Source: Porphyra umbilicalis (Eukaryota; Rhodophyta; Bangiophyceae; Bangiales; Bangiaceae). From it: a stretch of 64,000 nucleotides of DNA. Position 1 is the first letter of the stretch. Each line of letters starts with the position of its first letter. The stretch lies in assembly GCA_002049455.2 (NCBI GenBank), contig KV918961.1, positions 79,575 through 143,574 on the forward strand, written 5' to 3'. Made by a program: the position numbers and the translations under genes. This document shows positions 2,413-62,753 of this stretch, one piece after another. A model generated the notes under the pieces. That model was given only the letters and a program-made list of their open reading frames with translations, had not been told where the DNA came from and did not search any database.

Positions 2413-3584
2413 ATGGCGAGCGCGGCGCCGCTGCCGCCCGCGGCGGGGGTGCCCCGGCGGCGGCCCGGGGGCCGCCCCCCCCCCCCCCCCCCCCCGCGCC
2501 CCTCCCCCCCGCCTTTTGCGGGGACGCGTCCCCCCCCCCCCCCCCGCGGGCGCCGGCTCCGTCGTTGGCCCCTACACGCTCGGCCACACGCTCGGGACGG
2601 GGGGTTTTGGGGTTGTGCGGCACGGCACCCACAATGGCAGCGGCACCGCCGTTGCCGTCAAGGTGCTCGACATGGAGCGCGTCGTGCGCGACGGCCTCTC
2701 CCCGCAGGTGCGGCGGGAGGTTGCGGCCCTAACCGTGTTGCGCCACCGGCGGCTGGTGGAGGGCGTCGACTTTCGGGCGTCGGGGGACCAACTGTTTTTG
2801 GTGATGGAGCTCGTGTCGGGGGGGGACCTGTACGAGCTCCTCGTGCGCGAGCGGCGGCTGCCCGAGGCGCGCGCGCAGCGGCTCGGGTGGCAGATTTGTG
2901 AGGGGCTCACCTACTGCCACGGGCAGGGGGTGTACCACCGGGACCTAAAGGTACGGACGGGGGGGAGGGGGGGTGGGGTGGAGTGGGGGGGGTGGTTGGT
3001 GGTGGGGGGCGGGGGACGTTTGGGGTTGGAGGGGAGGGAGGTCGCGTCGTCGGCTGACGCTGCCAGGGCGGCGGCTGTCGACGCGCATTTGGAGGGGCGG
3101 ACGAGGGTCGGGGGTGTTGGCATTCCCGATTGGCAGGCGCACGTGGGCGTGACGCAGCACGCGGCTGCGGCAAAGGGGCGCCCCAACTGACCTGTGTGTT
3201 TTGCACCGCCACGATGCGCACCGCGCACCACGGCCGACGTTCCCTGTACGCTGTGTACGCTTGTGCTGCGCTCCCGTTTGCGCCGCGCGCCCGCGGGCGG
3301 CCCCCCCAGTTGGAAAACGTGCTCCTAACCGCCGCCGGCGACATCAAAATTGCCGACTGGGGCCTCTCGTACATCCGCGCCCTCGGCGCGACGGCGGAGC
3401 CGCCCGCGGCCCCCCCACGTCCCCCCCCCCCCTCTCCCCCGACCGGCGCTCCAACGGCGCCGTCAACCGCGCCGCCGACGCGGCCGCGTGGGCGTCCCCC
3501 CCCCCCCCCACCTACCGCAGCACGGTTGGGGTGCTCGGCCGCGGCGGCCGCGGCGTCGGCGGCGGCGGCCGCCGCGGTGGCGTC

Positions 3585-3662
<78 letters not shown>

Positions 3663-4025
3663 CGCCCCCGACCGCACGCGCTGCTAACGACGCTCGTCGG
3701 GACGGACGATTTCGCGCCGCCCGAGCTGCTCCGCCGCGTCCCCTACCGGGGCGACAAGATGGACGCGTGGGGCGTCGGCATCCTCCTCTACTTGATGCTC
3801 GCGGGCTACGCCCCCTTCCGCGGCGAAACGCCGACCGAGTTGGTCGACGCCATCCTCTCGGGCCGCGTCGTGTTTCCCGACTGGTTCTCCCGCGGCGCCC
3901 GCGAGGTCATTGCGGGGCTCCTGGGGGGGGGGGTCGACGAGCGGTGGGGCGTCGCCGACGCGGCCGCGCACTGGTGGTTTGATGGGGCGCGGGAGGAGGC
4001 GGCGGCGGAGGACGCGGCGGCGGCA

Positions 4026-4061
<36 letters not shown>

Positions 4062-5300
4062 GCGGCAGCGGCGGTGCCCGCCGCCGCGGTGGTGGCGGGG
4101 CCAGCGGCGGGCGGCAGCGTCGGCGCAGGCGGCCGCGCGCCCACAGTGGGCACTGGTGCCACCGCCGACGCGTGGCCGGTCGAGGCGGCGCTCGCCGCCG
4201 CCGAGGCAACGTCTGGCGGCGGCTCCCCGACGGCCGGTCGGGGCGGCGCCGACGGCACGCCCGCCGCGGCGGGGGCCACGCGGCGGAGCCGCAGCGCCGC
4301 CGCGACGAGCGTCGGGTGGCAACGACCCGCCCGCCCCGCCGCCACTGGTGACCGACTGCGCAGCGGCAGTGGCGGCGACGGTGGCGGCGGCGGCGGCAGC
4401 GACCGCACCCGCCGCGTCAGCCGCCCGTCGGCAGACCCGCTGCTGACACGCGCGGTGACCGCCGACGCGGCGACGCTGCCCCGCGTCGACGCTGCGGCGG
4501 TCGTGGGGTGGTCGACCGACGCCCCCGGCGGCGGCGGCGGCGTCGGCGTCGGCGGCGGCGCCGATGGCGACGCGCGCGACCGCCGGCGGCCGCCGTCGTG
4601 GGGGAGCCCCCCCGACGCGCGGGAGCGGCGGCTGGCGCGCCGCGCTGCCGACGGCGGCGGCGCGACGCGGACGGGCAGCGAGGGGGGGGGCGGTCGCCCC
4701 GGCGGCAGCGGCGCCGCGCACCGCTCGGGCAGTGACGGCGGCGGCGTCGGGCGGCGGACGGGCAGCGACGGCGGCGCGGCGCGGCGGACGGGCAGCGGCG
4801 GCGGGGCGGCGCGCCGGTCGGGCAGCGCCGGTGGCGGCGGGGGGACCCCCCCGACGGGCGCACCCGCCGCCGCCGTTGGGCGCCGCCGCTCCAGCGGCCG
4901 CTCCGCGGCGAGTGCGCCCGGCGGGGCGACGGGCCCCCCCCCCCTCCGCCCCGTTGCGCGGCTGGCCGTCTCCCACGGCGCGGCGGGCGCCTACCCGGCG
5001 TCGGACCGGTACGGCGCCGGCGGGTGGCCGCCGCCCGGCTACCCGTCCAAGGCCGCCGCGGGGGCGGTCGGCGCGCCGGCGGGGGCGGCGGCGCGGCGGA
5101 GCCGCGCCGCCGGCGGGCCCCTCGTCCCGTCGGGGCCCTCCTCGTACGCGCTCGCGCTGTCGGCGGCGGTGGAGGCGGGGGGGCGGGGGGGGGGGGGGGG
5201 GGGCCCTGGGGGGGGGGGGGGCCCAGCCACCACGGGCGCGGGGGGGGGGCGGGCACGGATGAGGAGGAGGGCCGGGGGGGGTCCCCGGCGCCGCGCTTGA
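2413..5300 (+). CDS. CAMK-group Ser/Thr kinase, SnRK/CIPK-like, with long low-complexity tail
   Basis: A protein kinase interrupted by one intron (2951-3309, donor GTACGG, acceptor CCCAG). The first exon carries the Gly loop GTGGFGVV, the ATP-binding Lys in VAVKVLD, and YHRDLK. The second resumes with LENVLL and IADWGLS, so the metal-binding motif is DWG rather than DFG. GTDDFAPPELL (APE-like) and the C-lobe DAWGVGILLYLMLAGYAPF follow. The first half resembles plant SnRK/CIPK kinases, but no NAF or regulatory domain is visible. The activation segment contains a Pro-rich stretch and a poly-Gly run of roughly 25 residues. After the domain comes a roughly 440-residue Ala/Gly/Ser/Arg tail with tandem R(T/S)GS(D/G)GG units. 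The frame changes at C runs near 2480-2545 and near 3421-3432, probably homopolymer errors. The start at 2413 (CCAACCATGG) is the only good ATG nearby but lies in a different frame from the domain, so the N-terminus is uncertain. Substrate unknown. Confidence 0.75.
3589..3660 (+). repeat. (GGC)n trinucleotide array inside kinase exon 2
   Basis: About 24 tandem GGC units read as poly-Gly in the kinase frame, between the DWG motif and the APE-like motif. It is prone to length change and expands the activation segment. Confidence 0.85.
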
Positions 5301-6001
5301 CGGGCGGGCGGCGGCGGAGCTGGCGCCGCTGGACGCCCGTGTGTTTGATGGGCGAGTGAGGGGGGGGGGGGGGTGGAGGCCGGGCGGGCGGGCGGCCCGC
5401 CCGGACGGGGTCGGCGGCTAGAGGGTGTGCCGGGGGGGTGGCGTTCCCCGCGTCTGCGCGCGTGGCGGGCGGGGGGGCGACGGGGCAACGGGGGGCGCCC
5501 GCGCGGACGGCGCGGCGCGTGGGAGTGGCGCAAGGGGTGGGAGGGAGGGGGGGGGGGGCGACGGGCGTGCGCGCACCCGCCGCGCAGGGCGGCGCCGCGG
5601 CGCGCCCGCCGCGACCGCCCGCGTCCGCGGGGGCGGGCCCGAGGCAGGCAGACAGACAAACGGGTCAAGAGAAACAGAATGCGGGCAACGGGGGGGCGCG
5701 AACCCTCGGCGCCGCCCGCCGCCACGCTCTGCTGTTTGCACCCCCACCCCCGCGCGGCTCCCACCCCCCCTCCACGCCCCAAAAAGACACAAAAAACAAA
5801 CACAAAAACGACTGTCCAGTGTCGGTCCCGGTCGCCCCCCCGCGCGCCCTCCCTGCCAGGCGGTCGTCCACACAACCCGTGCGGCCGCCCCCACCCGCCG
5901 CTGCCCGCACCGCACCGCTCGCCAAAAGGCCGCGTACGCACCGCGCCGCCCGCCCACCAGCGTCGTGCCACCACCCGCCACGCCCCCCCCACCTCCCCAG
6001 C
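5301..6001. other. Convergent 3' intergenic region
   Basis: Separates the ends of the kinase (+) and glycosyltransferase (-) genes and must hold both 3' UTRs. G-rich to about 5560, then mixed, with an A-rich stretch at about 5779-5812 that would be T-rich in the glycosyltransferase transcript. No further gene seen. Confidence 0.5.
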
Positions 6002-21592: not shown

Positions 21593-22510
21593 ATGGGCTG
21601 CGCGACCAGCCGGGAGGCCAAGGGGCGGGCGCCGCAGGTGCTGCTCCTCGGCCTCGACGGCGCCGGCTCGACGACGGGGCTGTACCACTTGGCGCTCGGC
21701 AAGCCGTTTGAGACGGTGCCGACGCTCGGCTTTAACCACGAGGTGCGTGGGGCGGGGCGGGGGGGGGGGGGGGGGGGGGGGGGGGGGAGAGCCGGCGGCG
21801 GCAGGTGGGCGCCCCTGGTCATTGACCGGGGGCGGGGGGGTGGGGACGGCGTGGGGGGGGGGGGGGGCGACGGGAGACGGGCGCCCCTGCCGGTGCCGCG
21901 GTCAGAGCGGGCAACCGGCGCCGTCCCGCCGCCAGTGGCAGCCGGCGGTCTGGCCCCTTGCGGCTGCCACGGACGGCGGGCCGACGCGCGTCGCCCGGCG
22001 GCCACGGCGGGCGTCGGGGACGCTGCGGCACGGCACCGACGGTGCGGCCGTGCGCGCGGCGCGCACGGCGCCGCCGCCGCGCCGCCCCCCGCGCCCGTCG
22101 TGCGACGGCGGGTCTGGGCGGCGGGCGCGCCCGCGCGCCCGCCGCGCGCGTGTGGTCGGCGCGTTGCTCACGCGCGGAACGGCGCCGTTTGCCCCCCCCC
22201 CCCCCCCCCCCCGCGCCACGGCGCGCGCGTGCGCCGCCCTCGCTCCCCGTGGTTGTGTGGTTGTGTGTGTGTGTGTGTGTTGGACGCCCCACCGCGGCGG
22301 CGGCGCACCTTTCCCCCCCCCCCTCCCCCCCGCACAGGTCATTGAATACAATGGGGTGACCGTTGAGTTGTGGGACATTGGCGGCGCCGTCGGCGTGCGC
22401 CCGCTGTGGACGCAGTACGTCACCGCCGCGTCGGCCATCCTCTACTTTGTCGACGCGCACGACTCGGCGGAGCGCCTCGCCGCCGCGCGCGTGGCGCTCC
22501 TCTCCCTCCT

Positions 22511-22549
<39 letters not shown>

Positions 22550-24362: not shown

Positions 24363-24394
<32 letters not shown>

Positions 24395-24523: not shown

Positions 24524-24555
<32 letters not shown>

Positions 24556-30119: not shown

Positions 30120-30718
30120 ATGGCCTTTGTCGGCGCCGCCGCGGCCTTCCGTGCCTCTGCCCCCACGCGGCCAGCGACGTCTGCCTTCACGGGCACCCGC
30201 GTCTCTGCTGCCGTCTCCCGCCGCACGTCGGGACCGGTGATGAGCCTCGAGCCGGTCGTGACGTCGATCAGCAACTCGCTGGTGACGCTCGGTGCAGCAG
30301 ATGGCGTACGTTCGGTTGTGGGCTGCCCCGCTTGGGGTTTTTCTTTGTTAGCCTGCTATTTTGAGGCGAGAGTGCATAGTGAGATTGGCGCTTCTTTATC
30401 ATGGGGGCGCGGCGGTTGATTGCTGGTGGCAGCTAGCAGCCTCGTGGCAGAGCATGCCTCGAGGGATCAGCTCGTCGGCGACGAACGTGCTCAACGCTGT
30501 GCATTGGGAGCTTGTGCTGACGAGTCATGTGTTCTTGGCCATGACATCTGCTGCTTGTTGCCATGTTCGTATTCAACTGGTGGCGGTATTCATGCTCGTG
30601 GCGACTACTCTTGCCTCCTTGATGTACGCAGGACTTCGGTGGCTACACCGGTCCGGTCGCCGGCCTTGTCATCATCGGCGTCATTATTGCCCTGCTGACG
30701 CCGCCGGTCAAGGAGTAA
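30120..30718 (+). CDS. Small single-span thylakoid-type membrane protein precursor (90 aa)
   Basis: Two exons, 30120-30305 and 30632-30718, joined in phase 0 (donor GTACGT, acceptor ACGCAG; intron 326 bp). The precursor begins MAFVGAAAAFRASAPTRP, basic and hydroxylated, as in red-algal plastid transit peptides, to about residue 40. The mature part would start near MSLEPVVTSISNSL and contain one hydrophobic span, GPVAGLVIIGVIIALL, ending in a short tail TPPVKE. Size and layout match low-molecular-weight photosystem subunits, but I cannot match it to a named one (it does not look like PsbX, PsbW, PsbY or PetM as I know them). Good ATG context (GTCGCCATGG). Confidence is high for the gene, low for function. 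Confidence 0.75.
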
Positions 30719-38875: not shown

Positions 38876-41772
38876 TCAAAGCTCGGTCTTCCCTTCCTCA
38901 GCCGCGTCAGCCGACGGAACCGTGTCTGCAGCCGGCTCGCCAGACGCAGACGAGTCACCGGCCACCGGCGCCTCTGTCATCGTCCGCACGGGCAGCGGCG
39001 GCGGCAACCTGCGCACCACCAATGCCAACCGCCGGACGGCGTCTGACCTCTCTTCGACCTGCTTGGCGGTGTAGCCCGGGTCGCCCGTCGCCGGCCGGTC
39101 CGCCGCGGCGGCCTCTACTTCCTCGAGCCATTTGGTCGCCTCTGCGGCGGCGGCCTCAGCATCCGCCATGGCCTTCTCAGCGGCGGCCTTGGCCTCGTTC
39201 GAGTCCCCACTGGGGCCGACCCGCGCCGTGCGGGCGACACCAACGATCGTGGCGGACTGAACCAGCGTCTCGCGGAGGCCGGCCACTGCCTTTGGCCGAA
39301 TCGAGTACTCGCGGGCGCGGTCAAAGATTGGCGCCACGGCTGCCTTGACCTCCTTCCTTTTGGCGGCGAGCGCGGCCGTGCTGCCCGCCGCGTCTGTGTA
39401 CATCCAATCCTCCGCCGCGTCCAACTGCTCAATGAGCGCATCCCGCTCGGCGTCCGTGGAGACGACTTCGAGGGCGTCCGAGTCGTCGCCGCCGAGGCGC
39501 AAGGACGACCGGGAGTGAAGGACCAGGCCCTCCAGGGCGTTGAGGGCGTCGGCGCGGGCAGTGCGGTCGCTGGCCGCCGCGTCCAAGTCAGCAAGCGTCT
39601 TGCGGGAGGCGGCCAGGGCCGGTGCGCTCAAACGCCACCCGCCAACATTGCCATCCGAGTCGCCCGCGATGGCGGCTACTTCCGTCACGTCCAGAGCCTG
39701 GCGGTGGATGAGCGTTTTGGCTACGGGCTTAGGAGGGCCGTCAGGGGCAGCCGACTCCTTGGCATCCTTCGTCTTGGATTTGGGGTCAGCCGACGGTGTC
39801 GGCGTCGGGGTTGGCGTCGACCAGATGGTTTCCTCCAGAGTAGCCTCGGCGGCCTCCACCCGCACGAGGCCCGAGTGGTCGAGCGAAAAAGAGAGGGCGA
39901 TCTTGGGCGACGCCTCGGTCTCCGAATCGGTCGACCGACGCTTAGCAAACACCTTGCTGACACCCGCCACGGTGTAGCGGCCGTACAGGGTGCGCTCAAA
40001 GTCGGCCGCGTCTGTGACGGCGCCAGCGCCCGCGCCCGCATCGACGGCCGCGTCCTCAGGCGTGCCCGGCAAGGGCTCTAAGAATAGGGAGAGCGTAAAG
40101 TCCTCCTTGCGACGAACGGTCAGCTTCTTAGTGGCCGGCCGCTTGGAGCCCGCCGCAAAGAGCGTCGCGTTTTGGTAATCGCCGGCGCCCGTCGAGAGGG
40201 CACCTGCCTCCCGACGCACGGCCACGGACACGGCGCGTGGGGAGACATCGGCCAGGTCCAGCGCCCGCACGCGAAAGGTCGGCGACAGGGAGGCGGCGAG
40301 AAAGGCGGCGCCCATCACCGCCGCCTCGTCTGCGTTGACGCTCTTGTTGAGGGACGGCCGGCCGAGCGCCTCGCACAGCAGCTGCTGGAGCTTAGGCGTG
40401 CGGGACGCGCCGCCGAGTGGCACGACGGCGTCCAGCTGGTCCGCGGTGATTCCCGCCGACGCGAGCGCGCGGGCCACGGGAGCAGTAACGCGGGCGAGCG
40501 TCGACGCCGCGTCCGACTCGAAGTCCGCCCGAGATACGACCGTGCTCGTCAAGTCGACGTCGCCAAAGAGCGACGGGACGGCCACGTGGGCCTCCACATT
40601 GGCACTGAGCATCTCCCGAACCTTTTGAGCTTCCTTGCGGAGGCGGGTGACGACCCGCGGGTTGCCCGCCGCCGACTCGTCCGAGCCGGGTGCCAGCCCG
40701 CGCTGCTTGTCAAACGCCGCGACCAGCCGCGCGACGATCACATTGTCGAGCGCGCGCCCGCCAAGCGTACGGTCCCACGCGTGCGACAATACAGTTACGG
40801 AGCTCGGCACCTTGGTCGCGAAGCGCCCAGACTTCTTGTTGTCAATCTGTACGACCGTCGCGACGGTGCTACCGGCGCCAACGTCGACAAAGAGCGCAAA
40901 GTGGGCGTCCTTGACCGCTCCGTCCTTGGCCGCCCCCGTCGACGGGGACGGTGACGCGTCGGCCGACGGCAACGCCGTCGGCGACACCGTCGCCTTATTG
41001 TCCAGCGCGTACTTGAGCGCGGCCGCCGCGTTGGAGTTGACCAGCGCGAGGACGTTGAGGCCCGCCACGGACGCCGCGTCGGCGAGCGCCGCCCGGTGCG
41101 GCGCAGAGTACCACGCGGGTACGGTCACGACCGTGTCGCGCACGGTCGATTCCGGGGCGCCCAGCGCTGCAGCTGCGTGCTGCCGCGCCAAGGAGAGGAT
41201 CATGGCGACGAGGTCGACGCCGGTGAGGCTCAGTGCCGGCGCCGACGGCGTCGTGCCGGCTGGGAGCTCCGCCTTGGCAGACGCGTTACCCAGGTAGCCC
41301 AGGGGGGCCAACACTGCGCGTGTAGGCGCTTTGGGCGCATATGCCAGGGCGGGGTCTCCGAACAGCCGCTCCCCATCGAGGGTGAAAGCGACGACCGTGG
41401 GGGTCTTGCGCTTGGACGCCTCATTGGTGACGAGCTCCAGGCCCTTGCCGGGACGTGCAACCGCAACCTTCAAAGCAAGAAATGAGCAGAATGGGGTGAG
41501 AGGTCAGGAGCAAGAAGCAAACGCAAAAGCCGTCGGTTAGTCAGCATCACTGCCGGGTTGCCCCCACTGACACCCTGTAACAGGTTCCAGGCGATGCGGA
41601 ACAAGTGACCAGAAGAAAAGTAGGCAGTAGAAAAACGCACCTTGAGGAACCCTGATCCCAAGTCCACCGCCAGAAGGTTGCCTGCCACCGAGGCCGCCGA
41701 CAGGGCGATCAGCGCCAGGCCGCACACTGCCGACGCCCACCGTCCGAGCCGCATCATGTCGCTTCTTGTCAT
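38876..41772 (-). CDS. ER-lumenal Hsp170 chaperone (HYOU1/GRP170/Lhs1)
   Basis: A 907-residue large Hsp70 family chaperone and nucleotide-exchange factor for BiP in the ER lumen. Exon 1 (41641-41772) encodes a signal peptide (MTRSDMMRLGRWASAVCGLA... to about residue 31) and the first ATPase strand AVDLGSGFLK. Intron 41468-41640 (donor GTGCGT, acceptor TTTGAAG). Exon 2 resumes VAVARPGKGLELVTNEASKR, with VTVPAWYS (VTVPA motif), FVDVGAGSTVATVVQ (phosphate 2 loop), AVVPLGGASRTPKLQQLL (adenosine site) and ADEAAVMGAAFLAA. A Pro/Lys/Ser-rich linker precedes the C-terminal helical part (DAAEDWMYTDAAG, EYSIRPKAVAGLRE). The protein ends KTEL, a KDEL-type retention signal. The start at 41772 is chosen; an internal Met at 41757 would also give a signal peptide. 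Divergent from GAR1 with a 488-bp shared upstream region. Confidence 0.93.
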
Positions 41773-42260: not shown

Positions 42261-43462
42261 ATGAGTTTTCGTGGTGGAGGCTTCCGTGGCGGTGGCCGCG
42301 GCGGCGGCGGCAGCTTCCGTGGTGGCGGCCGCGGCGGCGGCGGCTTTGGCGGCGGCGGCTTTGGCGGCGGCGGCCGAGGCGGCTTTCGCGGCGGCGGCCG
42401 CGGCGGCGGCCGCGGCGGCTTTGGTGGCGGCGGCGGCGGGCGGTGGGACGACGGTTCCCCTCCCGCGTCGGTCACCGCCCTCGGCACCTTTTTACACCCG
42501 TGCGAGGGGGAGATGGTCTACCAATCTACCCAGACGATGGTGCCCTACTTCAACGCGCCCGTCTTTCTCGAATCCAAGGCGCTCGTCGGCAAGGTGGAGG
42601 AGATCCTCGGGCCCATCTCGTCATTGATGTTTACGGTCAAGCCCGTCGACGGCGTCGTGCCGTCCTCCTTTGTGTCGGGCGATAAGGTGTTTATCGCGCC
42701 GGAGAAGCTGCTCCCGCTGAGCCGCTTCCTCCCAAAACCGGCGGCGCCCAAAGCGCCCAAGAAGCGGGGGGCGGGCGGCGGGCGGGGGGGGGTGTCCAAG
42801 CCAGGCGGGTACGTTTTTTTGTCGTGCTGTTCGTCGTTGGGGGGGGGGGTGGGGGGGTTCTCGATGGCATGCAGATTCCTTGTGTGCATACTTGCCACTC
42901 CCGTCGGCCGGTCAATGTTGGTGGTCTACACCATGTTATCTGGGCTGCTGGTCTATGGAGAAGCGCCCGTGCGCAGGTGCGCCTGTGGATTCCGCGGCTT
43001 GACGTACGACCTGCGGCGCGCAGGTGGCGCTCCGCGCGACTGGCATTGTACTTGTGGTGCGCGACGGGGTGTGGAGAGCCGGGCATCGTCCGCCTCCCTG
43101 GACGGCCGGCCAGCGTGGCCCACTGACCAATGCGCCACCCCGCTCTGCTCTGACCTTACTCTGTATCTTATTGCTGGCCGCTTGCCTCTGCGTCGAACGG
43201 CTGTTGGTGCCGACGACGCGCCCGCCACAGCCGGGGAGGCCGCGGCGGTTTTGGTGGCGGCCGCGGCGGCTTTCGCGGCGGCGGGGGTGGGGGCTTTCGG
43301 GGCGGCGGTCGCGGCGGCTTTCGTGGCGGCGGGGGTGGCGGCTTTCGGGGCGGCAGTCGCGGCGGCTTCCGCGGCGGCGGCGGCGGCGGTGGCGGCTTTC
43401 GGGGCGGCGGCGGCGGCGGCGGCAGTGGCGGCTTCCGCGGGGGAGGGGGGTATGGCCGATAA
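42261..43462 (+). CDS. GAR1: GAR1, H/ACA snoRNP subunit
   Basis: A 259-residue core protein of H/ACA snoRNPs, which guide pseudouridylation of rRNA in the nucleolus. Exon 1 (42261-42808) begins MSFRGGGFRGGGRGGGG, an RGG domain, then the conserved core: ALGTFLHPCEGEMVYQS, VPYFNAPVFLESKALVGKVE, ILGPISSLMFTVKPVDGV, SGDKVFIAPEKLLPLSRFLP, then KPAAPKAPKKRG. Intron 42809-43230 (donor GTACGT, acceptor CCACAG, phase 2). Exon 2 is entirely RGGF-type repeats ending GGYGR and a TAA at 43460. The two RGG domains flanking the core are the normal GAR1 layout; the frame is intact throughout. Confidence 0.96.
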
Positions 43463-43868: not shown

Positions 43869-46678
43869 TCACCCGCGGCGGCGACGCGTGCCCCCCCCCC
43901 CCTCCTCCAAGCCCATGGAGCGCAAGCGCGCTTCCGCTTCCGCCATGGACGACGGCGCGTGGGAGGGCGGTGTCGTCCCCCACACCGGCGACGAGACGGG
44001 CGGCAGCTGGGGTACCCGCGGATCCCCCCACCCCGCGGCGGAGAGGGACGCGCCGCCGCCGACGCCGCGGCTGCCAGACGCCCGCAGCGCGGCCGTCGCG
44101 GCGGGCGACAGCAGCCCCGAGGCGCTGCGAAACGGCTGCGCGGGCGGACCCTGCGCTCCCTGCGGCGAGTAGCCCCCGGGGGGGGGGCGCCCGTGCGCCT
44201 GCCCATACGCGTGCGCGGGCGGCGGCGCCCGCGGCTGCGGCGGGTAGGTGCGGGGCGGCGGCGACGAGTGCACGGGCGGCGGCGGGTAGGCGCGGGGCGG
44301 CGGCGGCGACGAGTGCACGGGCGGCGGCGGGTAGGCGCCCGGCGGCGCTTGCGCGTGCGCCGGCGGCGGTGGCCGGCGCGGGGGCTCAAACGGGGACCCG
44401 CCGTCGCCGCCGGGCGTCAGAGGCAATGCGAGCGCCGACGGCATGGACGGCCCGATCGAGGATAGGGACGACACCATCTGCAACGCCCGCGGCTGCGGCG
44501 GCGCCTTCTGCTGCGACGGCGGCGGCGCCAGCAGGTGCGGCGTGTACCGATCGTTGGCGGCCGACACTGGCGGCGTGTACTGGTCATCCGCGGCCGACAC
44601 TGGCGGCGTGTACCGGTCGTCGGCGGCCGACACTGGCGGCGGCGGCGGCAGCGGCGGCGGCGGCGGCGGCGGTACCCCCCCCCGGCCCCGTGCGGCGACG
44701 TCGGGTCGAGGCCGCCGGGCAGGCGCGGCGGCGGGTGCGGAGTGTGGCCGCCCGCCCCGCGCGGCGCCGTCGGCGGCGACGCCGCGTGCCCATCGAGGGC
44801 GGCGGCGGTAAGCGGCGCGCCCCGCCCATCTGGCGGCCGCGGGTGCGGCGGCCCGCCCCTGTCGGCCACGGGCCGCTGCTGCTGTGGCGGCGACGGCGGC
44901 GGCGGCGGCCGCGGCGGTGGCGGCCGCGGCGGCAGCGCGCCAGTGGCGGCTGGCGGCATCCCGCCGCCGCCGCGCGCGGCGGCGCCCCCTGCCGCAGCGC
45001 CGCGCGCGGCGCGGATGGCCGACTCGACCGCCACGTTGGCGCGCGCGACCGCCAGCACGCGCTTCGATACGCTCGACGCGAGGACCCCCCCCCCCCGGCG
45101 CCGCCGCCCCCCCCCCCCCCGCCATCAGCGCCCCCCGCATGCGGTGGACGGTGAGGGCGGCCATGACGGCGCGGCGGAACTTGCGGCGCGTCGAGTGGAG
45201 GCCCCGCAAGTTGTTGTCGAGCGGCTCGGTCGACAGCGCCGCCGGGTCGGCCAACCACGCGTGCTGCATCGCGGCCGCGGCGGTGAGGCGCTTGTCCGCG
45301 TTGAGCTGCAGGAGCCCCCGCAGGAGGGAGATGGCGTCGGGGCTGATGCGGCCCCACTCGCGGGCCGGCAGCGCGTACTTGGCGTTGGCGATGCGGCTCA
45401 TGCACTCGGCGTCGGTGCGGCCAAAAAAGGGCATTTTGCCGGACAGGATGATGTAGAGGACGACGCCGGCCGCCCACATGTCGACGGGCGGGCCGTAGGG
45501 GGTGCGCTTGATCACCTCGGGGGCGACGTAGCCGGGCGTGCCAATGACCGTGGCCATCGGTCGGATGGCCGCCGGGTCGACGGAGGCGGACGAGCTCGAG
45601 GAGCCGGGGGAGAGCGCCGTCTCTGCCTCGACAAAGTTGGCAAGCCCAAAGTCGGCGAGCTTGACCTCGAGCGGCCACGTCTTGGACTTGACGAGGATGT
45701 TCTCGGGCTGCAGGGGAGGAAAGTAAAGGGGGCCATAAGCGGCCGCAATCACACCCGGAGATGGAGGCAAGGCGGAGCCGACGAAACTCGAGAACACCAG
45801 TCAGCATGCTGCTTGCCGGGTGACCGATCGTCCGTTGGCGCACGGTACGCGGCGGGCTTGGACCAGCACGCACGGTTCACCCTGTAATCACGATGCGCGT
45901 GTAGAGGTCGACAGACATGCCAATCCACCACCCCGCGCGCGCGCACGGCACATTGTCTCTCCGGTGCACGCCCACCGCAACGTACCTTGATGTCTCGATG
46001 GCAAATCCCCTGCGAGTGGAGGTACTCAATCCCCGACACAATCGAGCGCATCACATGCGACGCGTTTCGCTCCGACAGGTGCCCGTGGTCGGCGACAATG
46101 TCAAAGAGCTCCCCCCCCTCACACAACTCAATGACCAAGTGCAGGTGGGTGACCGTCTCAAAGATGTCATACGTGGTGACGACATTTGGGTGGTCGAGTT
46201 CCCGCATGATCGCCACCTCCCGCACGACGTACTCGAGCTCCCTGGCGGTGTAGCCGGCCTTGGACACAATCTTGATGGCGACCTCCTCCCCCGTCTCCCG
46301 GTCGACGCCCCGGTGCACTTTGGCAAAGGAGCCCTCCCCGAGCACCTCCCCAACAATATAATAGTCCTCGAGGGACCGCGCCGACGCGGTGCGGAGGGCG
46401 TCGACCCACGCCGCAAAGTCGGTCGCCGTCTCCGCAAAAAACGACATTTGCCGGGTGGGCAGCGCCACGACCAGCTCATGCTCCCGCGCGCCGGCGGTGA
46501 CCGGACACGAAATGACCGACGCCTCCCACGAAGCCGGTGAACCGGGCGAGTGATGGTTGGACAAGACAGTGCCTTTGAGGCGGAAGTAGCGGCGCGTACG
46601 GGAGCGGAGGAATGATTTGCCCTCCTTGAACAGCCACCCGTCCATGAGCGTCGGCACGTCATGTCGGAGGGTGGCCAT
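43869..46678 (-). CDS. PH-domain CAMK-type Ser/Thr kinase
   Basis: The N-terminus is a PH domain (residues about 10-100: MDGWLFKEGKSFLRSRTRRY, ending FAAWVDALRTASA), predicted to bind phosphoinositides. The kinase follows directly: YYIVGEVLGEGSFAKVHRG, Lys136 in VAIKIV, ICHRDIK ending exon 1 at residue 231. Intron 45708-45985 (donor GTACGT, acceptor CTGCAG). Exon 2 continues PENILVKSKTWPLEVKLADF, D250-F-G, GTPGYVAPEVI, VDMWAAGVVLYIILSGKMPF, and a DKRLTAAAAMQHAW C-lobe end: a complete, catalytically normal CAMK-group kinase. After RRAVMAALTVHRMRGALM, G runs move the frame; VSKRVLAVARANVAVESAIR in another frame looks like real continuation. Later the original frame resumes with three 11-residue PPVSAADDRYT units and three YPPPPVHSSPP-type units, ending at 43869. 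The tail reading is approximate. Confidence 0.85.
44241..44345 (-). repeat. Tandem Pro-rich coding repeat in the PH-kinase tail
   Basis: About 2.5 units of 42-45 bp, encoding YPPPPVHSSPP(P)PRA on the minus strand. Confidence 0.7.
44538..44636 (-). repeat. Three 33-bp tandem repeats in the PH-kinase tail
   Basis: Units at 44538-44570, 44571-44603 and 44604-44636, each beginning CGGCGTGTAC on the plus strand and encoding 11 residues of the type PPVSAADDRYT on the minus strand. Confidence 0.85.
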
Positions 46679-47430: not shown

Positions 47431-47438
47431 CACAGAGT

Positions 47439-48362: not shown

Positions 48363-48370
48363 CACAGAAC

Positions 48371-49026: not shown

Positions 49027-50038
49027 CTACACCGCCACAGTCTCCTTGGCCACCGGCGGCACGCCCGCCTGCAAAACCGCCCGCAGCTCCTCCACGGTCT
49101 CCACGACAGCCCCACCGCCGCCCGCCCGGAGGGCGTCCCCACCGCGGAAGCCCCACGCCACCCCCACCGCCGTCGCGCCCGCCGCGGCCGCCGCCGCCAT
49201 ATCCACCTCCGTGTCCCCGACGAGCACCGTGTCCGACGGCGCCACGCCCAACTCCCGACACACTGCCCCGAGGGCGCCCGCGTCGGGCTTGAGCGGGCGG
49301 CGCTCGGTGGCGCCCGCGACGACCCGAAAGGGTACGGCTGGGAACAGGCGGGCGGTGAGGGCCTTGACAAACGGCTCGGTTTTGTTGGAGAGGATGGCGA
49401 GCGCCGGAGGCGGGGCAGGAGCGCCCCCGCTGTCGCCCCCGCTGGCGAGGCCGTCGAGCAGGGTGGGGATGCCGGGGAAGGGCACAGACGCAGCGTGGTC
49501 CGATGCCGCATCCGCGGCGACTTTAAGGGCGACCGCCTTATCAAGCAGCGCGTCGTCGGTTGTATCGAGGGCGCCAGACATCAGCAGGCGGTTGCCGCCG
49601 CCGGCTCTGTAGGGGGGGGACAAGCAGCAGTCGGCGAGAAAAGGAATGAGAGCGAGGCAAATAGTAGCGTGGAGAGCGTCAGTGACGTGCGGCGCCGAGA
49701 AAAAAAAACAGGTCTGGCAGCTCCAATTGAAAAAGAGTAGAAGCTGCATCCAGTCGAGTGCGTTGAAGAGGGCCAGCAAGTCCCACCAGTCGCCCTGTGG
49801 GCACGGTCATCCACCCACCTCCAATGTACAAGGCACACTAATGGGATCATCGAAAAGAAGGAAGTGCTTCCGCGACCGGTACGTACAGCTTGTGATAGTC
49901 AGAGACGGGTCGAGGAGGGTGGCCGAGCTCCGCTAACGCCTTATTGGCCCCATCGGCAATATCACCAATGCTGTCGACAAGCGTGCCGTCCAAGTCAAAA
50001 ATGACAGCGGCAAACGGCCGCCGGGCGGGGGGTGCCAT
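49027..50038 (-). CDS. HAD-superfamily phosphatase, phosphoglycolate phosphatase-like (Gph)
   Basis: A 243-residue protein. Exon 1 (49887-50038) encodes motif I FDLDGTLVDS with nucleophile D15 and acid/base D17. Intron 49607-49886 (donor GTACGT after AAGCT, acceptor CCTACAG, phase 2). Exon 2 reads AGGGNRLLMSGALDTTDDAL (cap domain start), LAILSNKTEPFVKAL (motif II Ser/Thr and following Lys/Thr), RPLKPDAGAL (motif III Lys) and DTVLVGDTEVDMAAAAAAG (motif IV Asp pair). All four HAD motifs are present, with an alpha-helical C1 cap as in Gph/PGP. The likely reaction is dephosphorylation of a small phosphate ester, with 2-phosphoglycolate the best guess. No targeting peptide is visible from the ATG at 50038. 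In the family the cap sets specificity, so the substrate remains inference. Confidence 0.88.
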
Positions 50039-51558: not shown

Positions 51559-52470
51559 ATGACAACCATGGGCTGCGACGTTGTCACGGCCGCCTTGGAG
51601 TACGACGAGTTCGAGGGTGCCACCTTCTACTCGGCACCGCCGCCGCCCCCGCCCCCACCGTCTCTGAAGGAACTGGTGTCTAGCCTGGTCGACGCGCGGG
51701 ACCGCGCACGCGCCGCCCTGTTCATTGCTGGGGACTGGACGGACGAACTGAGCTTCTCCCACTACTATCATCAGCACTGGGCCAACCAGGTACGTTGGGG
51801 CCTTTGCTCTGGCGGCACGTGGGAGACGGATGGTCGACGCCTTGTAGTGGTACACCCTTTTCTGGTGTGAGCCGCGAGTCTGACTCTTGGCTGGACTGTC
51901 TTGTGCTGCTTTGGTTGCTTGCCGCTGTGTCCGCCTGGTATGTGTGTGTGCGTGATTGTTGTTTTTCTACATTTTCTTACTTAGATGCTGCACCTCACAT
52001 CTCTTGGTGCCCTGTACTTCGCCCTCTTGTGGGCAGCCGCTGAGCGCCATCCGGTCCTCCCAGCAGCCATCACCGTCGTCATCAGCACTGCATACACCGC
52101 GATTGACGTGTGGCTAGGTGGCGCCTTCTTCGTTGGCCTGGGCGTCCTGGCCGCCTCTTCTGTCGCCCTCGTCTCCATCATTGGCGCCGACGGCCACGCG
52201 ACCGCGCGCGCCGTCTGGACAGTCGTTTGGGCCTTCTCCCAGCTGGCTGGCCACGCGCTCTTTGAGGGCCGTCTGCCGGCCTTTCGCCCCGCCGAGGCGC
52301 TGGTCGTCACCCCCGCCCTAATGGTGCTGCTCGTGCTCTTCCGCACCGGCTGGGCGGGGGATTGGAATGGGCAAATCCGTCGGCGCACGATGCGCTGGGC
52401 GGGGACCGAAAAGTTCGTGTGGGCGGCCAAAACGGGCGGCATCACCGAAACCAAAGTGGCGACGGAGTAA
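51559..52470 (+). CDS. DUF962/Mpo1-like multi-pass membrane protein
   Basis: A 238-residue protein from two exons, 51559-51789 and 51985-52470 (donor GTACGT, acceptor CTTAG, phase 0). The family signature is visible across the junction: FSHYYHQHWANQ then MLHLTSLGA, i.e. the Hx3H...N...H motif of YGL010w/Mpo1, and SQLAGHALFEGRLPAF near the end. Yeast Mpo1 is an Fe(II)-dependent dioxygenase acting on 2-hydroxy fatty acids from phytosphingosine breakdown, at the ER. Four or five hydrophobic spans follow residue 78 (for example AAITVVISTAYTAIDVWL, FFVGLGVLAASSVALVSII). The N-terminal 70 residues contain a short Pro run and a charged helix. Assignment to the family is good; the biochemical activity is inferred from the yeast relative. 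Confidence 0.8.
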
Positions 52471-56200: not shown

Positions 56201-57780
56201 GCCGCCAACTCGGTGCGCGTGGCGGTGAGCGACGCGAGCTCCGCGTCTGCCGCCGCCGCCTCGGCAGTCGCCTTGTCGAGCGCCGCCTGGTCGGATGCCA
56301 GCCGGGCAGCGAGCAACCGCCGCTCCGTCGCCGCACCCGCCGCCCGCGGGGCAGCGTCCCGCAGCTCGGCTTCCGTGCGGGCGGTGCGGCGGGCGAGCGC
56401 CGAGCGCTCCCGGCGGGCGACTTCCACCGCCCGCCGCAGGGCGGCCAGGCCGCCCGTGTCGGCGGCGGCGGTCGCCGCCGCGAGGCGGGTCGTCAAGTCG
56501 GCTGCCTCGGCGTCGGCCGACCGCACCTCGGCGTCGAGGTGGTAGAGGCGGAAGAGGGCGCCCTCGGTGCGCGTCGACGCCAGCTGCGCGCGGAGGGCTT
56601 CGTAGCGGGCTACCTCACGCTCCTGCTCCTTGTATTGGCGGCGTTCGGCGGCGAGCGCTTTGCGCTTGTTGTGGAGCTCCACGACCGCATCGTCGGCCGC
56701 GTCGCGCGCGTCGCGGGCGGCAATGTAGGCAGCTCGGTGGGTGGCGCTGCCCGACACGTCCTCAAAGAGGGTGGTGAGATCCTTGGGACTCTTGGAGGCA
56801 ATGCCCTCCACCTGTAAGGCGAGTTGTGCAACGCACCAACGGCCCAGTCGGAAGGTCAAGAGAGCAACCGAAAACAAGGCCAACCCGCCCCTCCACCTCC
56901 TGGTCCCACGCCCGTTAATGCCCAGTGCCGTTTGCAGTACACTGCTTCCCATCCGCCTCAGCGGGGAGCCCGCTGAGGCGGGGAGCCCCTCACGACACAC
57001 GGGCAATCCCCACTCTGCCCTGCCACCCTGGAACCTCCACCAAAGACCTCACCAAGCAGCACCCCCCCCCTTCCCCCCACCCGCGGACAGCCTCTTCCCG
57101 TCACCCCATCAGAAGCTCCCCCCGCCCAAACGCACCTCGTTTTGGAACACCAAAAAGTTGCGCGCGCGCACAATCACCCCAATAGCCGCGAGCGCCGCGT
57201 GGTAAGCGTCCACCCCCACCACCACGCCGTCCACGCGGTACGTTGAGGCGCCCTTGAGACCGACCGACCGCGAAAAAGCCGTCTCCTTGGCCGCATCGTC
57301 CACATAAACGAGCGTCACGACCGCCCGCCGGGCGGTCGGCGCGGGGGCCCTGGCCGCCGCCAACCGCCCGGCCGCCCGCCGCGACCGGCCGGCGGCGGTG
57401 CCACCACCCCCGCCGCCGCCGCCGCCGCCGCCGCCCGCGTCGCTGTCATCGTCGGCGTCACTGCCGTCCTCCTCGTCGTCCGTGTCTACCTCCGAGCCGT
57501 CTGCGGCGGCGGCGCCGCGGCGGCGCCCACGCCCACCCCCGCCCGCCGCCGCGGCGGCGCCCTCATCGTCGCCCGGCGGGCGGTAGATGAGGTCGCGGAG
57601 CGCGGCGCCGCGCAGGTGCGCCGTGCGGACGCCGAGGACAAAGGAGATGGCGTCCATGAGGTTGCTCTTGCCGCTCCCATTGCTGCCAATGATGGCGGTG
57701 AAGCCGGCAAACGGGCCGACCGTGACGGTGCCGCCAAAGGATTTGAAGTCGGTCAGCTCCAGGCGGGCCAAGCGGCCCAT
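53234..57780 (-). CDS. SMC1: SMC1, cohesin core ATPase subunit
   Basis: About 1,400 residues. Exon 1 (57136-57780) starts MGRLARLELTDFKSFGG, the typical SMC1 N-terminus, with Walker A IGSNGSGKSN at 32-39, and ends FLVFQNE. Intron 56812-57135 (donor GTGCGT, acceptor TTACAG). Exon 2 resumes VEGIASKSPKDLTTLFEDVS, then a long Ala/Arg/Glu coiled coil, the hinge (YPGVRGRLADLCRP, VCLGRQMEAVVVDS, KVVTLDGTLLAKSGFMTGGG), a second coiled coil, and the C-terminal head with signature LSGGERSVAALALL and Walker B FFVLDEVDAALD. Cohesin holds sister chromatids. Odd points: an acidic/Gly-rich insert at about residues 70-155 in the N-head; an acidic insert (AEEEEEEASSDTADGNDDD) before the C-head; and a frame change at a 15-C run (54389-54403), after which the family sequence continues, probably a homopolymer error. 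Confidence 0.93.
56953..56981. repeat. 13-bp perfect hairpin in the SMC1 intron
   Basis: CCGCCTCAGCGGG, loop GAG, CCCGCTGAGGCGG. It sits mid-intron on the minus-strand transcript and would bring splice sites closer if folded. Confidence 0.65.
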
Positions 57781-58366
57781 GGGGAGGTAGGGGGAAAGGG
57801 GGAAAGGGGGAAAGGGATTCGACCACGGCGGACCACCAGCACCAGTGCAATCAAGGGGACTACAGATGAACAAGTAGGAAAGGTATCAGGCAGAGGCGCG
57901 TCGCCGCCACGCTGGCGCCGTGCCACCGCGGCGCGGCCGCGCGGCCGACACCACCGACAATGGTCGACGCGCGCCAACGCCGTGCGGCGCGGTGCAGCGC
58001 GGCATCGGAGCTGAAACGGGCGGAGGACGATGCAACCTGATTTCGCGCCAGAATTAATTCCTTTCGCCCAACCTGCAAAGTTGCTTTCAGTGTAACTGCA
58101 TGGCTTGACGACTTGCTGTCCATTCAGCTGTCGCTCTCCGACCCAGGTCTGATCGTTTTGGACCCCTGTCTCGTGCAAGGCCGTGGCTGTCCAGCCTGCA
58201 TGCAACGAGCGTGCGACTGAGGTGGCGTTGGGCGTCGAGACCACAGTGTTTATAGCGCGCTCGCGTGCCGACGCCCTCTGGGCACGTTGCGGTTCCCGTC
58301 CCCCTACGTTCATACATTGTTCGTCTCTCTATCTCTTTTTTTATCTCCTTTGTCCCCCACGCCCGG
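57781..58366. other. Divergent intergenic region between SMC1 and TPM-RING genes
   Basis: A purine-rich GGGGGAAAGGGGGAAAGGGG tract just upstream of the SMC1 ATG and a pyrimidine-rich tract just upstream of the TPM-RING ATG. No gene seen; both promoters expected. Confidence 0.5.
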
Positions 58367-60046
58367 ATGGACGCCCGCCGCACGCGGCCGGCGGGCGGTT
58401 CCCCACGCCGCCCGTCCCCCACGACGGCGGCGCCCGTCGCCGCCGACACCGCCACCCCGCTCGCCCAGGGGCGCACCCTGCGGTGGTTGGCCGCCGCCAC
58501 CACCGCCGCCGCCGCGGCAGCGCTGCTGCTGCTCCCCCCGCCGCCGCCGCGGCGGTGCGCTCCGCGTCTGGTGGCACGCCCTCCGCGGCGGTCGCCAACC
58601 CCCTGACCGCCCCCACCGCGTGCGGGCGCCCCCACGCGTCGGTCTTGTGCGACCCCGACGGGCTCCTGCCGCCGTCTGCGGCGGCCATTGTCGATGGCCT
58701 CGCCATGCGCATCCGCCGCGCCGAGCCGCCCTACGGCGCGGCCGTGTGTGGGGACGGCCAGCCGGCGGTGCCGGCCGACGCGCCGCCAGACACGGCGCGG
58801 GGCTACCAGCTCGGCGTCGTTGTGGTGAACCGCGCCGACCTGTCGGCCGGGGCGCCACCGGGCGGTGACACGCTCGGCGCGTATGCGCGGCGGGTGTACG
58901 ACACGTGGGGCGTCGGTGACGCCGGCTGCGGCAATGGGGTGCTCCTGCTCCTCAGCCTCGGCGACCGCAAGCTGTTTCTTGTCACGGGCGCGGGCGCCAA
59001 GCTGGGGCTGACCGAACCCCGCATCGACGAGGTGTACGCGGTGATGCGGCCGGCGCTGCGCGCCGACGCGCCGGGCAAGGCCGTCGAGGCGGGCGTGGAC
59101 GCCATTGGGCGGTACCTCGCGTCGGCTGCTACCGCCGCCGCCGCCGCCGCCGACGACGAGGACGGTGACGGCGGCGGTGGTGGCGGCGGCTTTCTCTTTC
59201 CGCTGGGCCTCTTTGGCATCGCCGCGGGGGCCATTGCGCTTTCCGGCCGCCGCGCCGAGGCGCGCAAGCGCGCCCGCTACGCCGCCTTTCGGTCGGCGCT
59301 GCGGCGCACCGACGACGACCGGTCGGCGGCGCTCGCCAACCGGTACGAGGCCCGCTCCTGCGCGATTTGTTTGCAAGACTTTCCGCGCCCCGGTGGCGGG
59401 GGGCGGGGCGCGCCCCCGCCATCGCCGCCGGTGGCGGCGGCCCCTCGGCCGACGCGGCGGCGGCGCCGCTGACCGCCGCTGGTGCGTCGTCGGTGGCGGC
59501 GGCGGCGGCGGCCGGTGGCGGCAGCGGCGGCGGAGCGGCCGCCGCTGCCAGGGAGGAGGCGGCGCGGCAGCCGCGCACGCTCGGCTGCGGCCACGTCTTT
59601 TGCGACGGGTGCATCAGCGCCTGGGTCGCCGCCGACCACGGCACGTGCCCCATCTGCCGCGCGCCCGTCACGGACGCGCCCGCCGGCGGGGCGGGTGCCA
59701 CCGCCGGCGCGGGCGCGTCGTCCTCGTCGGCCGCGGGCGGCGCGGGTGCGGCGGCGGGGGCGGCGGGGGTGGCGGGCGGCCACGGCTGGGCCGCCTTCCG
59801 CCCCGAACTGTCCTTCCGCGCGCGCCGCCTGCGGACGCTCTACCCCGAGTACGTGCCGCCGGCGCTGTTTGACACGTGGGAGCGGGAGCAGTACCACCAG
59901 CCGCTGGGCGTCGCCGCCGCGGTCGTCGGGCTGTCGGCGGCGACGCGCGCGTCGGCGCTGGCAGAGGGGGGGGGGGGTGGGCGTCGGGCACCTCGTTTGG
60001 GGGGGGGTCCTCGGGGGGGGGGGGGGGGCACGGGGGGAGCTGGTAG
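58367..60046 (+). CDS. TPM-domain and RING-finger fusion protein
   Basis: Read in order across two frame changes at C/G-rich runs (near 58525-58560 and 59395-59420). An N-terminal hydrophobic segment (LRWLAAATTAAAAAALLLL) may be a signal anchor. A TPM (TLP18.3/Psb32/MOLO-1) domain follows: SVLCDPDGLLPPSAAAIVDG, YQLGVVVVNRADL, RVYDTWGVGDAGCGNGVLLL, LGDRKLFLVTGAGAKLGLTE, AVEAGVDAIGRYL. A hydrophobic segment GGGFLFPLGLFGIAAGAIAL, then a RING finger: CAIC, a roughly 60-residue Ala/Gly insert, then LGCGHVFCDGCISAWVA and CPICRAPV. C-terminus in a third frame: WASGTSFGGGSSGGGG...GGSW and stop at 60044, the Gly/Ser/Trp ending usual in TPM membrane proteins. Probably a membrane-anchored E3 ubiquitin ligase; substrate and compartment unknown. 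Confidence 0.78.
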
Positions 60047-60631
60047 CGCCACCCGCCTAGGGGGGTGTGGGGGACAGACGCGGGCGCAGGCTGCCGACCA
60101 CCGTCGTTGCACACTGAATCGTAGGGGGCTGGCCCGTCCAGCCCCTCGTGTTCCCTACAAACCCGCGACCCTGCGTGACCTGATGAGCGCCGCGCGTGCT
60201 TGCCCTGCAGGGCGGGGTCCTTTGTACACACGCGACGAGCGCGCCCCGCCTTGCCCCCGTACCCACACACCGTGCCACAGCAAAGCCCACCGCCGGCGGC
60301 CATCCCCGTGGGTCGGCGAGTCGGCACCGAGCAGGCCTGGTCGGCCGCCGCCGGCGTGGCGGGGCGACCGACCAGCGGCGGCCAGCAGCCAGCGGGTGGC
60401 CCCACAACCGCCCGCGCCAGGCCGACGCCCCCGCCGCACGGCGCGGCGGCACTCGCGCCGCGGGCGGCAAGCCCCCCGCCGGCCCCAGCCGCCACGCAAA
60501 CCGTCGGTCTGGCCGACACCTCGCCCACGCACACCAACGCCCCACTATGCCCGCGGGTGGCCCCGGCACAAGCCGTCACGGTCGCCCCCGCGCGCCGCCG
60601 CCAGCGGCGCCCCCGCCGTCCACCACCGACG
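60047..60631. other. Convergent 3' intergenic region
   Basis: Between TPM-RING (+) and the small membrane-protein gene (-). No recognisable gene; open frames are shadows of GC-rich sequence. Confidence 0.5.
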
Positions 60632-61404
60632 CTAGGCCCACGGCCGCGCGGCGGCCGCCGTCTGGCGCAGGCGCCGCACCCGGCCGCCGCCGTGCGTCTC
60701 GACCCGCCGCCGCTGCAGGCGCCGCCGCCGCCGCCGCCGCCGACGCCGACGCCGGCGCCGTCGTGCGGCCGCGCGGCGCGGCCGCCGCCAGGCCCGCCCC
60801 CCCCCCCCAGCCGCCGCACCGCCCGGCGGCGTCACGCGCACAGCCGCCGCCCCGTCAATGGCGGGTGGGGCGCCACGAGCCCCCCCCTCCACCGTCGGCG
60901 GCGGCAGCGCGCCCGCCGGCGACCGGGCGGCAAGGCGCTTGGCGCGCCGCTTGGCGGCCGCCGCCGCCTTGGCGCGCCCCGCGGCGGCGGCGGCGGCCGC
61001 GTCGGCGGCCGCCCGCTGCGCGCGCCACAGGCGGAGGTCCATGAGGCCCCCGCGGTAGGTTGTGTAGCCGGCAGTGACAAAGAGCCCAATCTGTCGCGCG
61101 GGGCAGGGGGGGGGGGGGGAGGGGGGTGGGGGGGGGGGGGGGACGGACGACGCCGCACCGGCCGGCGAGCCGCGCCCGCCCGCGGGGCACGCGCGTTTGC
61201 AAAGAGGGAGGACAGGGGGGCACCCGCGTCAGCAGTGTGTCGGGTGCCGTAAGCGGCGGTGGCGTGGCGGCGTGCGCGCGCGCGCGCGCGCGGGCGGGCG
61301 GCAGGCGGCGGGCGGCGGGCGGACCGGGGACCCCACCGCGGGGGACAACGTACGTAGAGGACGGCGGGGGATTGGAGGATGGAGGTGAGGAGGCCAATCG
61401 CCAT
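60632..61404 (-). CDS. Small hypothetical single-span membrane protein
   Basis: I do not recognise the family. Exon 1 (61354-61404) encodes MAIGLLTSILQSPAVLY; donor GTACGT matches the other introns here; acceptor GCGACAG at 61091; exon 2 (60632-61090) resumes IGLFVTAGYTTYRGGLMDLR in phase 0. The joined sequence gives one hydrophobic span of about 25 residues interrupted by the exon junction, followed by a basic Ala/Lys/Arg helix (GRAKAAAAAKRRAKRLAAR) and a Pro/Arg-rich tail whose frame is unreliable. Total about 169 residues as read. Divergent from the YqeY-type gene 410 bp away. The exon junction restoring a continuous hydrophobic helix is the main reason for calling it. Confidence 0.5.
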
Positions 61405-61813
61405 GGCGGGGGGGTGGGCCGGCGGATGGCACGGCGGGTCGTCCACAGCGGCGGCGGCGGCGGCGGCGCCGCCGCGCACGGGCGCACGAGCGCCGGTGGC
61501 GGGCGCGGGCGCGGCGCGGCGGGCCGCGGTCCCGACGGCGGCAGCGACGACGGGCGTGACGACGCGGCTTGGCGCACCGCACTTTAGCGGAAAAATGGCG
61601 GATCAAGGTTTCCAAATCTGGTGGTGGACGCGAAGAATCTCCGTGGCCGACCGCCACCCCCGCGCCTCGGTGTCCGCAGGCCGCCCGGTGCACGACGACC
61701 ACCCGCCGCTGCGCTTTGCCATTGCCTGGTGCTTCCACCCCCCCCCTGCCCCTCCTCCTTCCCATTTGTTTTCACGACCGTGCCGCACGGCGACCCCCCC
61801 CCCCCCCCCGACC
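61405..61813. promoter_or_regulatory. Divergent promoter region, small membrane-protein and YqeY genes
   Basis: A 409-bp region with an AT-richer centre (GCGGAAAAATGGCGGATCAA near 61589) and C-rich flank before the YqeY ATG. No specific element can be assigned. Confidence 0.35.
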
Positions 61814-62753
61814 ATGGCACGCGTCGCCTTCCTCACCGCCGCCTGGTCGTCGGCCGTCCGCGCCGGCAGCCGCCCCCCTGCGGGTGCGCTTGGCGCGTCG
61901 GCCTTTGTCGTCCGCACCCCCCCCCGGCGGCCGCCGCGGCGGCGGCGGCGGCGGCCGGCGGCCGGCGGCGGGTCGCCGCCACCACCCCCCCCCCGCGCAT
62001 GGGCATTGCCACGGACGTGACGGAGCGGATGAAGGTGGCGATGAAGGCCAAGGACGCGGACACGCTGCGGGTGCTCCGCAACATGCGCGCCGCGTTTTTG
62101 ACCGCCCAAAAGGAAACGGGGGCGGACACGCTCGACGACGCGGCGGCGGTGGCGTGCCTCAAGCGGCTCGTCAAGCAGCGGAATCAGAGCATTGAGATGT
62201 ACGAGACGGGGGGGCGCACGGATTTGGCAGAGGTACGTTGGGGGGGAAGGGCGGGGGGGGTGGTCGGGGGGCGGGGGGGGGGGGGCAGGCGATGAGGAAA
62301 GTGGCAATACGTGGCTGTCGTTGATGGGGCACCGTCAACGCGCACGGTGCGCTCTCCCGGCGCAATCTGGCGGAGTTGGTGTCGCCGTTGAGGCGGCCGG
62401 ATGCAGTCCGACTCACGCCTGCCCCTGTGATTGCCCCGACGCATGCTCCCCGTGAGTCTCGGTGTGCGGTCGCTGCCACTCGGCGCCTTGCGTTCGTGTC
62501 TTGCCACTGGTCCGGCCGCCCCTTGCTCCTCACCCAGGCGGAGAAGTTTGAGCTCTCCCTCATCCAAACCTACCTGCCGTCCACCGCCGACGAGGCGACG
62601 ACGCGCGGGTGGGTGGAGGAGGCGATTGCGGCCATTGGGGCGACCAAGCCGGGCGACGTTGGCAAAGTCATGGGCGCGGTCATGAAGGGCCACCGGTCCG
62701 AAGTCGACGGGGCGCTCGTCAAGAAGGTGGCGGCGGAGCTGCTGAGCGCCTAG
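61814..62753 (+). CDS. YqeY/GatB_Yqey-domain protein with organelle presequence
   Basis: The N-terminus MARVAFLTAAWSSAVRAGSR is basic, acid-free and amphipathic, like a mitochondrial presequence, then a poly-Arg/Pro linker. A C run just before 61997 changes frame into the domain: MGIATDVTERMKVAMKAKDA, TLRVLRNMRAAFLTAQKE, ACLKRLVKQRNQSIEMYETG. Intron 62233-62537 (donor GTACGT, acceptor CACCCAG). Exon 2: AEKFELSLIQTYLPSTADEA and GDVGKVMGAVMKGHRSEVDG, the conserved YqeY C-terminal half, stop at 62751. The same fold forms the tail of GatB in the tRNA-Gln amidotransferase; free YqeY proteins are thought to have tRNA-related roles that are not proven. An alternative is initiation at the in-frame ATG 61999, giving a cytosolic form without presequence. 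Confidence 0.85.

Follow-up and report, generated by a model that had tools for sequence, protein, structure and literature searches.

Introns of the red alga Porphyra umbilicalis show no preference for A at position +4 of the donor site. The textbook intron starts with GTAAGT (canonical donor GTRAGT, A at +4), those of this alga mostly with GTACGT; among 69 donors that we placed in this genome, +4 was C in 50, T in 11, A in 7 and G in 1. The pattern was noticed in a window, by which we mean the whole analysed stretch of 64,000 nt of contig KV918961.1 (GCA_002049455.2; 70.7% GC in the window, 83.8 Mb in 665 contigs for the assembly around it), where the original prediction had read C at +4 in all eleven introns. 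As a rule for the genome this was rejected on wider sampling, as the 58 donors outside the window carry C 39, T 11, A 7 and G 1 times. At this rate of C the chance of eleven out of eleven is about 0.013, and the uniformity of the window is partly luck. Donors with A at +4, which had been named as the contrary outcome, do exist but are a minority, and the canonical preference for A is missing with the window included (7/69) and outside it (7/58). Giving each homologous position a single vote leaves C at 30.4, T at 4.9 and A at 3.7 of 39. It is firm that A is not preferred at +4, that G is rare there and that C is mostly what the sequence context offers.

The donors outside the window come from 42 loci and were chosen regardless of the base at +4. 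A kinase profile was built from 30 intact kinase domains of the same genome and aligned to 40 further kinase loci and the two kinases of the window, using a spliced aligner that demanded only GT and AG. It called 68 introns in the 42 sequences. Of these, 49 were forced by an internal stop or a frameshift and 19 unforced calls were set aside, four of which, with GTANG donors, were restored. In all 49 forced introns +4 was C in 33, T in 7, G in 5 and A in 4; the five with G all lack GTA and look like misplacements. Dropping seven forced introns that do not start with GTA, and a second call (GTACAT) in a window kinase, left 41 GTA donors. These and the four restored donors were joined by seven Ras-family donors, one from the SNRNP27K gene, nine further donors of the window and seven ab initio donors to give the set of 69. 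The Ras-family donors were picked out by eye among GTRNG sites at five loci, and only 16 matches to this family were found in the genome. The ab initio finder worked from GT/AG, codon statistics and a profile of acceptors, with no donor motif; on the known kinase donors it was exact in 22 of 39 cases, these introns having also served to train it. Seven of its 23 candidates were used, and the remaining 16 either repeated introns already known, were misplaced within such introns, or were off-form. At one locus (L073) it gave a misplaced GTAGG where homology gives GTACGT. The sole donor with G at +4 (L090, GTAGG) is counted in the 69 and the 58 and may likewise be misplaced, with a GTACG a few bases on; it was left out of the +6 association, the U1-match comparison, the count with one vote per position and the context tests that omit G. 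The set contains one identical pair of donors (L059 and L060) and 15 rows from one homologous kinase position, an intron at profile position 125 whose donors vary at +4 among its carriers (L053, L054, L055, L057, L059-L062, L064, L065, L067, L086, L087 and the window introns 2951 and 45985).

Compared with single bases inside introns (26% C), C at +4 outside the window is in large excess (39 vs 15.2 expected). The words GTAN inside introns are themselves mostly GTAC (38 of 67, with T in 15, G in 11 and A in 3), and against this sense-intron context the surplus shrinks to 39 vs 32.9 (p = 0.11 for the 58 outside donors), a control that weakened the idea of C being strongly selected. Taking the context over both strands of all loci, the expectation falls to 27.5 (p = 0.003). 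With the window included, C in 50/69 exceeds the sense-intron context at p = 0.01, but it was in the window that the pattern first drew attention. G is scarce at +4, with 1/58 vs 9.5 expected (p = 6e-4). Once G is omitted, the both-strand context expects C 37.8, T 11.0 and A 8.2 (p = 0.90) and the sense-intron context C 38.7, T 15.3 and A 3.1 (p = 0.04). Two paralogous Rho/Rac-like genes (L101 and L102) have an intron position in common but differ in its donor, which by eye is GTAAGT in one gene and GTACGT in its paralogue.

The remainder of the donor is largely conventional. Among the 69 donors +6 is T in 60, -1 is G in 54 and -2 is A in 41, and the counts of A at +3 (65) and G at +5 (68) partly reflect the choice of rows, since 41 were kept for GTA and many were selected with G at +5. 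The unselected 49 forced kinase introns also retain the +5 G (43) and +6 T (35) of the canonical donor. Position +7 shows a surplus of T (38/69, and 30/58 outside the window, vs a background of 26-30%), with p = 3e-7 when the reference is the base following GT within introns and p = 3.2e-5 when it is intron composition. This surplus and the near lack of G at +4 are the firm deviations from chance. GT...AG ends were seen at protein-coding joins in kinase, Ras-family and window genes, the aligner having demanded GT and AG, and we assumed the introns to be of U2 type. The kinase introns with GTA donors all have C or T at acceptor position -3 (42/42), and kinase introns are 152-450 bases long (n = 42).

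On the side of the spliceosome, a U6 snRNA gene at L001:1501-1600 (contig C343:7707-7806) reads ACAAACAGAGAAG. Its ACAGAGA is intact, and the base directly 5' of ACAGA is A where the Rfam consensus has U; this A could pair with the T that is in surplus at +7, and a matching change between U6 and +7 is possible. The suggestion of the original prediction that U6/U5 contacts dominate is thus supported in part, by the normal ACAGA box, the A before it and the 38 of 69 donors whose +7 T could pair. METTL16 is encoded, with a PF05971 match, an NPPF motif and matches to structures of the U6 methyltransferase, which are outscored in the same comparison by psilocybin synthases. The METTL16-like gene (L020-L022, contig C275:98797-99653) contains GC-rich inserts and one shift of reading frame. 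The shift falls within 53 bases, shorter than all 42 kinase introns, which leaves no room for an intron of the usual size; it may be an assembly error because a Ras-family exon seems, by eye, to have the same. This exon belongs to a Rho/Rac-like gene (L102, contig C71:20300-21300), where the frame appears to change within the exon at a place with no intron, which suggests that the assembly contains indel errors. SNRNP27K is encoded as well (PF08648 match), and the Met of its RQYMNR motif aligns with human Met141. Judged from these genes, the loss of METTL16, of SNRNP27K or of Met141 that is known from yeasts has not occurred here, although the frame shift makes METTL16 a putative methyltransferase only, and the yeast rule, by which the +4 A goes when these are lost, does not account for the state of +4 in Porphyra.

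We favour, with about an even chance of its being right, the reading that the preference for A at +4 was lost in a GC-rich red alga and that +4 is now filled by its local context, mostly with C and then with T, while G is kept out. The donor would be recognised by G at -1, GTA, G at +5 and T at both +6 and +7, where positions +5 to +7 would pair with the C and A of the ACAGA box of U6 and with the A that precedes it. We take U1 to be of the ordinary kind and tolerant of the mismatch at +4. As the driving force of the change we infer AT-to-GC substitution; in passages of a paper on Pyropia yezoensis, Bangiales are given as 64-68% GC, which the high GC seen here fits, with a surplus of A/T-to-G/C change (PMC7423979). 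Several points weigh against this reading. The rarity of G at +4 is unexplained by context and needs selection. The mismatch of C, T and A with the sense-intron context (p = 0.04) stems from a surplus of A, not of C. Position +8, also able to pair with U6, is without a surplus of T (21/69). METTL16 and SNRNP27K with Met141, which in yeasts accompany a preference for A at +4, are encoded, and the donors themselves were placed by homology and ab initio finding and not from transcripts.

The assumption of an ordinary U1 bears directly on the rivals, and its gene did not come to light in the assembly, either in a search with Rfam RF00003, which scored just 41 of its 1156 candidates, or with four sequence patterns. 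The pattern ATACNTACCTG gave 18 matches vs 31 for its reversed control, none of them U1 by Rfam, and at least one (L008) proved to be a kinase donor read on the opposite strand. TACCTG with the loop bound by U1-70K gave 4 matches vs 3, none U1 by eye; TACCT with an Sm-like site gave 96 vs 118, which is chance level, and neither of the two scanned was U1; a pattern of two U1 loops gave 13 vs 4, and the ten of these that were scanned were not U1. The search for Sm-like sites also turned up a stretch of about 5 kb (contig C1:323244-328362) with seven nearly identical repeats. The N-terminal Pfam domain of U1-70K had no match and no first-pass candidate, a weak negative as there was none in the 14 control genomes either. 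One Rfam model and four patterns do not prove that U1 is absent. An indirect indication of its sequence comes from the donors with A at +4, which are few (seven, three of them homologous). Their +6 is other than T in 5/7, vs 2/50 of donors with C at +4 (Fisher p = 1e-4), a contrast that persists without one homologous kinase position (2/4 vs 0/42, p = 0.006), and they match U1 at fewer of the other pairing positions (mean 3.71 vs 4.48, p = 0.02). Weaker pairing elsewhere when +4 is A suggests that A still pairs, and so hints at an ordinary U1 with U opposite +4.

We consider it unlikely that, as the original prediction chiefly proposed, U1 has instead acquired a G opposite +4, with which C would pair fully and U would wobble while A and G would be disfavoured. 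The order of bases at +4, C before T before A before G, is the one expected for a G partner, and an ordinary U1 was not found by the Rfam model or the four patterns; yet it is A, not C, that seems to add pairing, and ACUUACC is invariant in the U1 candidates of yeasts surveyed in the portion of PMC10581693 drawn on here. A U1 that is absent or unimportant, leaving the donor to U6 and U5 alone as reported for Cyanidioschyzon, would fit the T at +7 and the lack of any match to U1 RNA or U1-70K by the tool that found U6, METTL16 and SNRNP27K. We consider it rather doubtful, since so few candidates of the RNA search were scored, both U1 queries (the RNA model and the U1-70K domain) were silent in all 14 control genomes, a component seemingly lost from a red alga may have diverged instead, and the retained -1 G and -2 A are what pairing with U1 or U5 would require. 

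Positive selection of C, exerted where the base touches U6 (perhaps at an unmethylated A43) or a protein, with Prp8 and SNRNP27K as examples, is likewise unlikely. It would account for the excess of C over the both-strand context and for the recurrence of the same C in unrelated green picoalgae; against the sense-intron context the surplus is weak, and no pairing known to us would make C the preferred base opposite A43. A bolder combination, in which U1 carries G opposite +4 or is dispensable, U6 gained an A before ACAGA as partner of a newly arisen +7 T, both METTL16 and SNRNP27K were retained and the yeast rule for +4 does not extend to all eukaryotes, seems to us improbable as a whole. The trait of the lineage is real and parallels that of green picoalgae, and its simplest explanation is a relaxed +4 filled by a GC-rich context.

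Within the window the eleven donor hexamers listed by the original prediction are all present as given, and nine of the introns claimed there join exons into a plausible continuous protein at GT-AG ends, as judged by eye; the two in kinase genes were additionally placed by alignment. The other two, with GTACGT at 30306..30311 and 42809..42814 on the plus strand, are unconfirmed, the former read from sequence only and the latter leading into an exon that would be Gly/Arg-rich. On the plus strand, a protein kinase gene has an intron at 2951..3309 (GTACGG), placed by homology-guided spliced alignment without a donor motif, after which the exon resumes with LENVLL; the ab initio finder picked a different acceptor. 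An ARF-like GTPase-type gene (family by eye) has one at 21743..22337 (GTGCGT) that joins TLGFNHE to VIEYNGV. The intron at 51790..51984 (GTACGT) joins WANQ to MLHLTSLG, its downstream exon resembling a membrane protein, and the finder started it four bases late and gave it a different acceptor. The last, at 62233..62537 (GTACGT), is supported by its protein join and ab initio, and its downstream exon reads AEKFELSLIQTYLP. On the minus strand, the intron at 41468..41640 (GTGCGT) joins FLK to VAVARPG in an HSP70-family gene, called HYOU1 in the original prediction, with PF00012 in the downstream frame and exact ab initio placement; its acceptor reads AAG, in agreement with the claim of a single AAG acceptor in this gene. 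A PH-domain protein kinase gene has an intron at 45708..45985 (GTACGT; HRDIK joined to PENILVK, PF00069 on both sides) and a HAD-hydrolase-like gene (family by eye) one at 49607..49886 (GTACGT; protein join and ab initio). An SMC gene with SMC_N and SMC hinge domains is interrupted at 56812..57135 (GTGCGT; NFLVFQNE joined to VEGIASK, exact ab initio), and an intron at 61091..61353 (GTACGT) joins VLY to IGLFVTAGY. Overall the finder, whose training set contained the introns 2951 and 45985, placed 6 of the 11 window donors exactly (2951, 41640, 45985, 49886, 57135 and 62233), put 42809 and 51790 four bases late and missed 21743, 30306 and 61353; none of its ten extra calls has a GTRNG donor.

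The genome is that of a photosynthetic eukaryote, with ten matches to light-harvesting proteins, the best of which has a 1048-residue LHCI chain as its top comparison row; the solved chains that resemble it are presumably red-algal and cryptophyte. One contig of 185,000 bases carries frames resembling plastid ftsH and ycf23 (genes named by eye). A 124-base match occurs on six contigs (C22, C40, C94, C126, C201 and C451), identical or close over the first 80 letters printed; one of the six is the contig of the window, where the match lies outside the window, and it is possibly a transposable element.

One comparison is with Cyanidioschyzon merolae, also a red alga, in which U1 is reported in part of PMC11732430 to be lost; none was found here by the Rfam model and the four patterns. 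Its U6, as described in passages of PMC10581693, has U in place of the middle A of the ACAGA box, whereas the box is normal in Porphyra. In Saccharomycotina yeasts the same donor position is altered, again with no known change of U1 or of the U6 ACAGA box, and the replacement of A by U at +4 is linked in the same source to loss of METTL16 and SNRNP27K. Unlike in those yeasts, the base here is C and both METTL16 and SNRNP27K with Met141 are encoded. In the yeast donor +4 is the most variable base and is tied to U6 methylation; if our reading is true, Porphyra, having retained SNRNP27K and the gene of the methyltransferase but not the +4 A, would stand outside the yeast rule and offer a natural test of the demands that U1 and U6 make at this position. 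Possession of the gene need not mean methylation, as a tunicate that has METTL16 shows little m6A on its U6 (PMC13326754). In the literature that we searched, which was mostly without subscription journals, we found no report of a +4 C consensus in red algae. As a lineage consensus, however, +4 C is already in print for green picoalgae: the donor consensus is given as GTGCGTG in Ostreococcus (in the part of PMC2483917 used here, where Irimia and Roy also raised the question of a complementary snRNA change) and as AG|GTGCGT in Micromonas (in part of PMC3879977). Like these Mamiellophyceae, in which +4 C is the consensus of most introns, Porphyra has C as the commonest base at +4, in the full set and outside the window alike; unlike them, it is a red and not a green alga, and its +3 is A (65/69, with 41 rows kept for GTA) where theirs is G.

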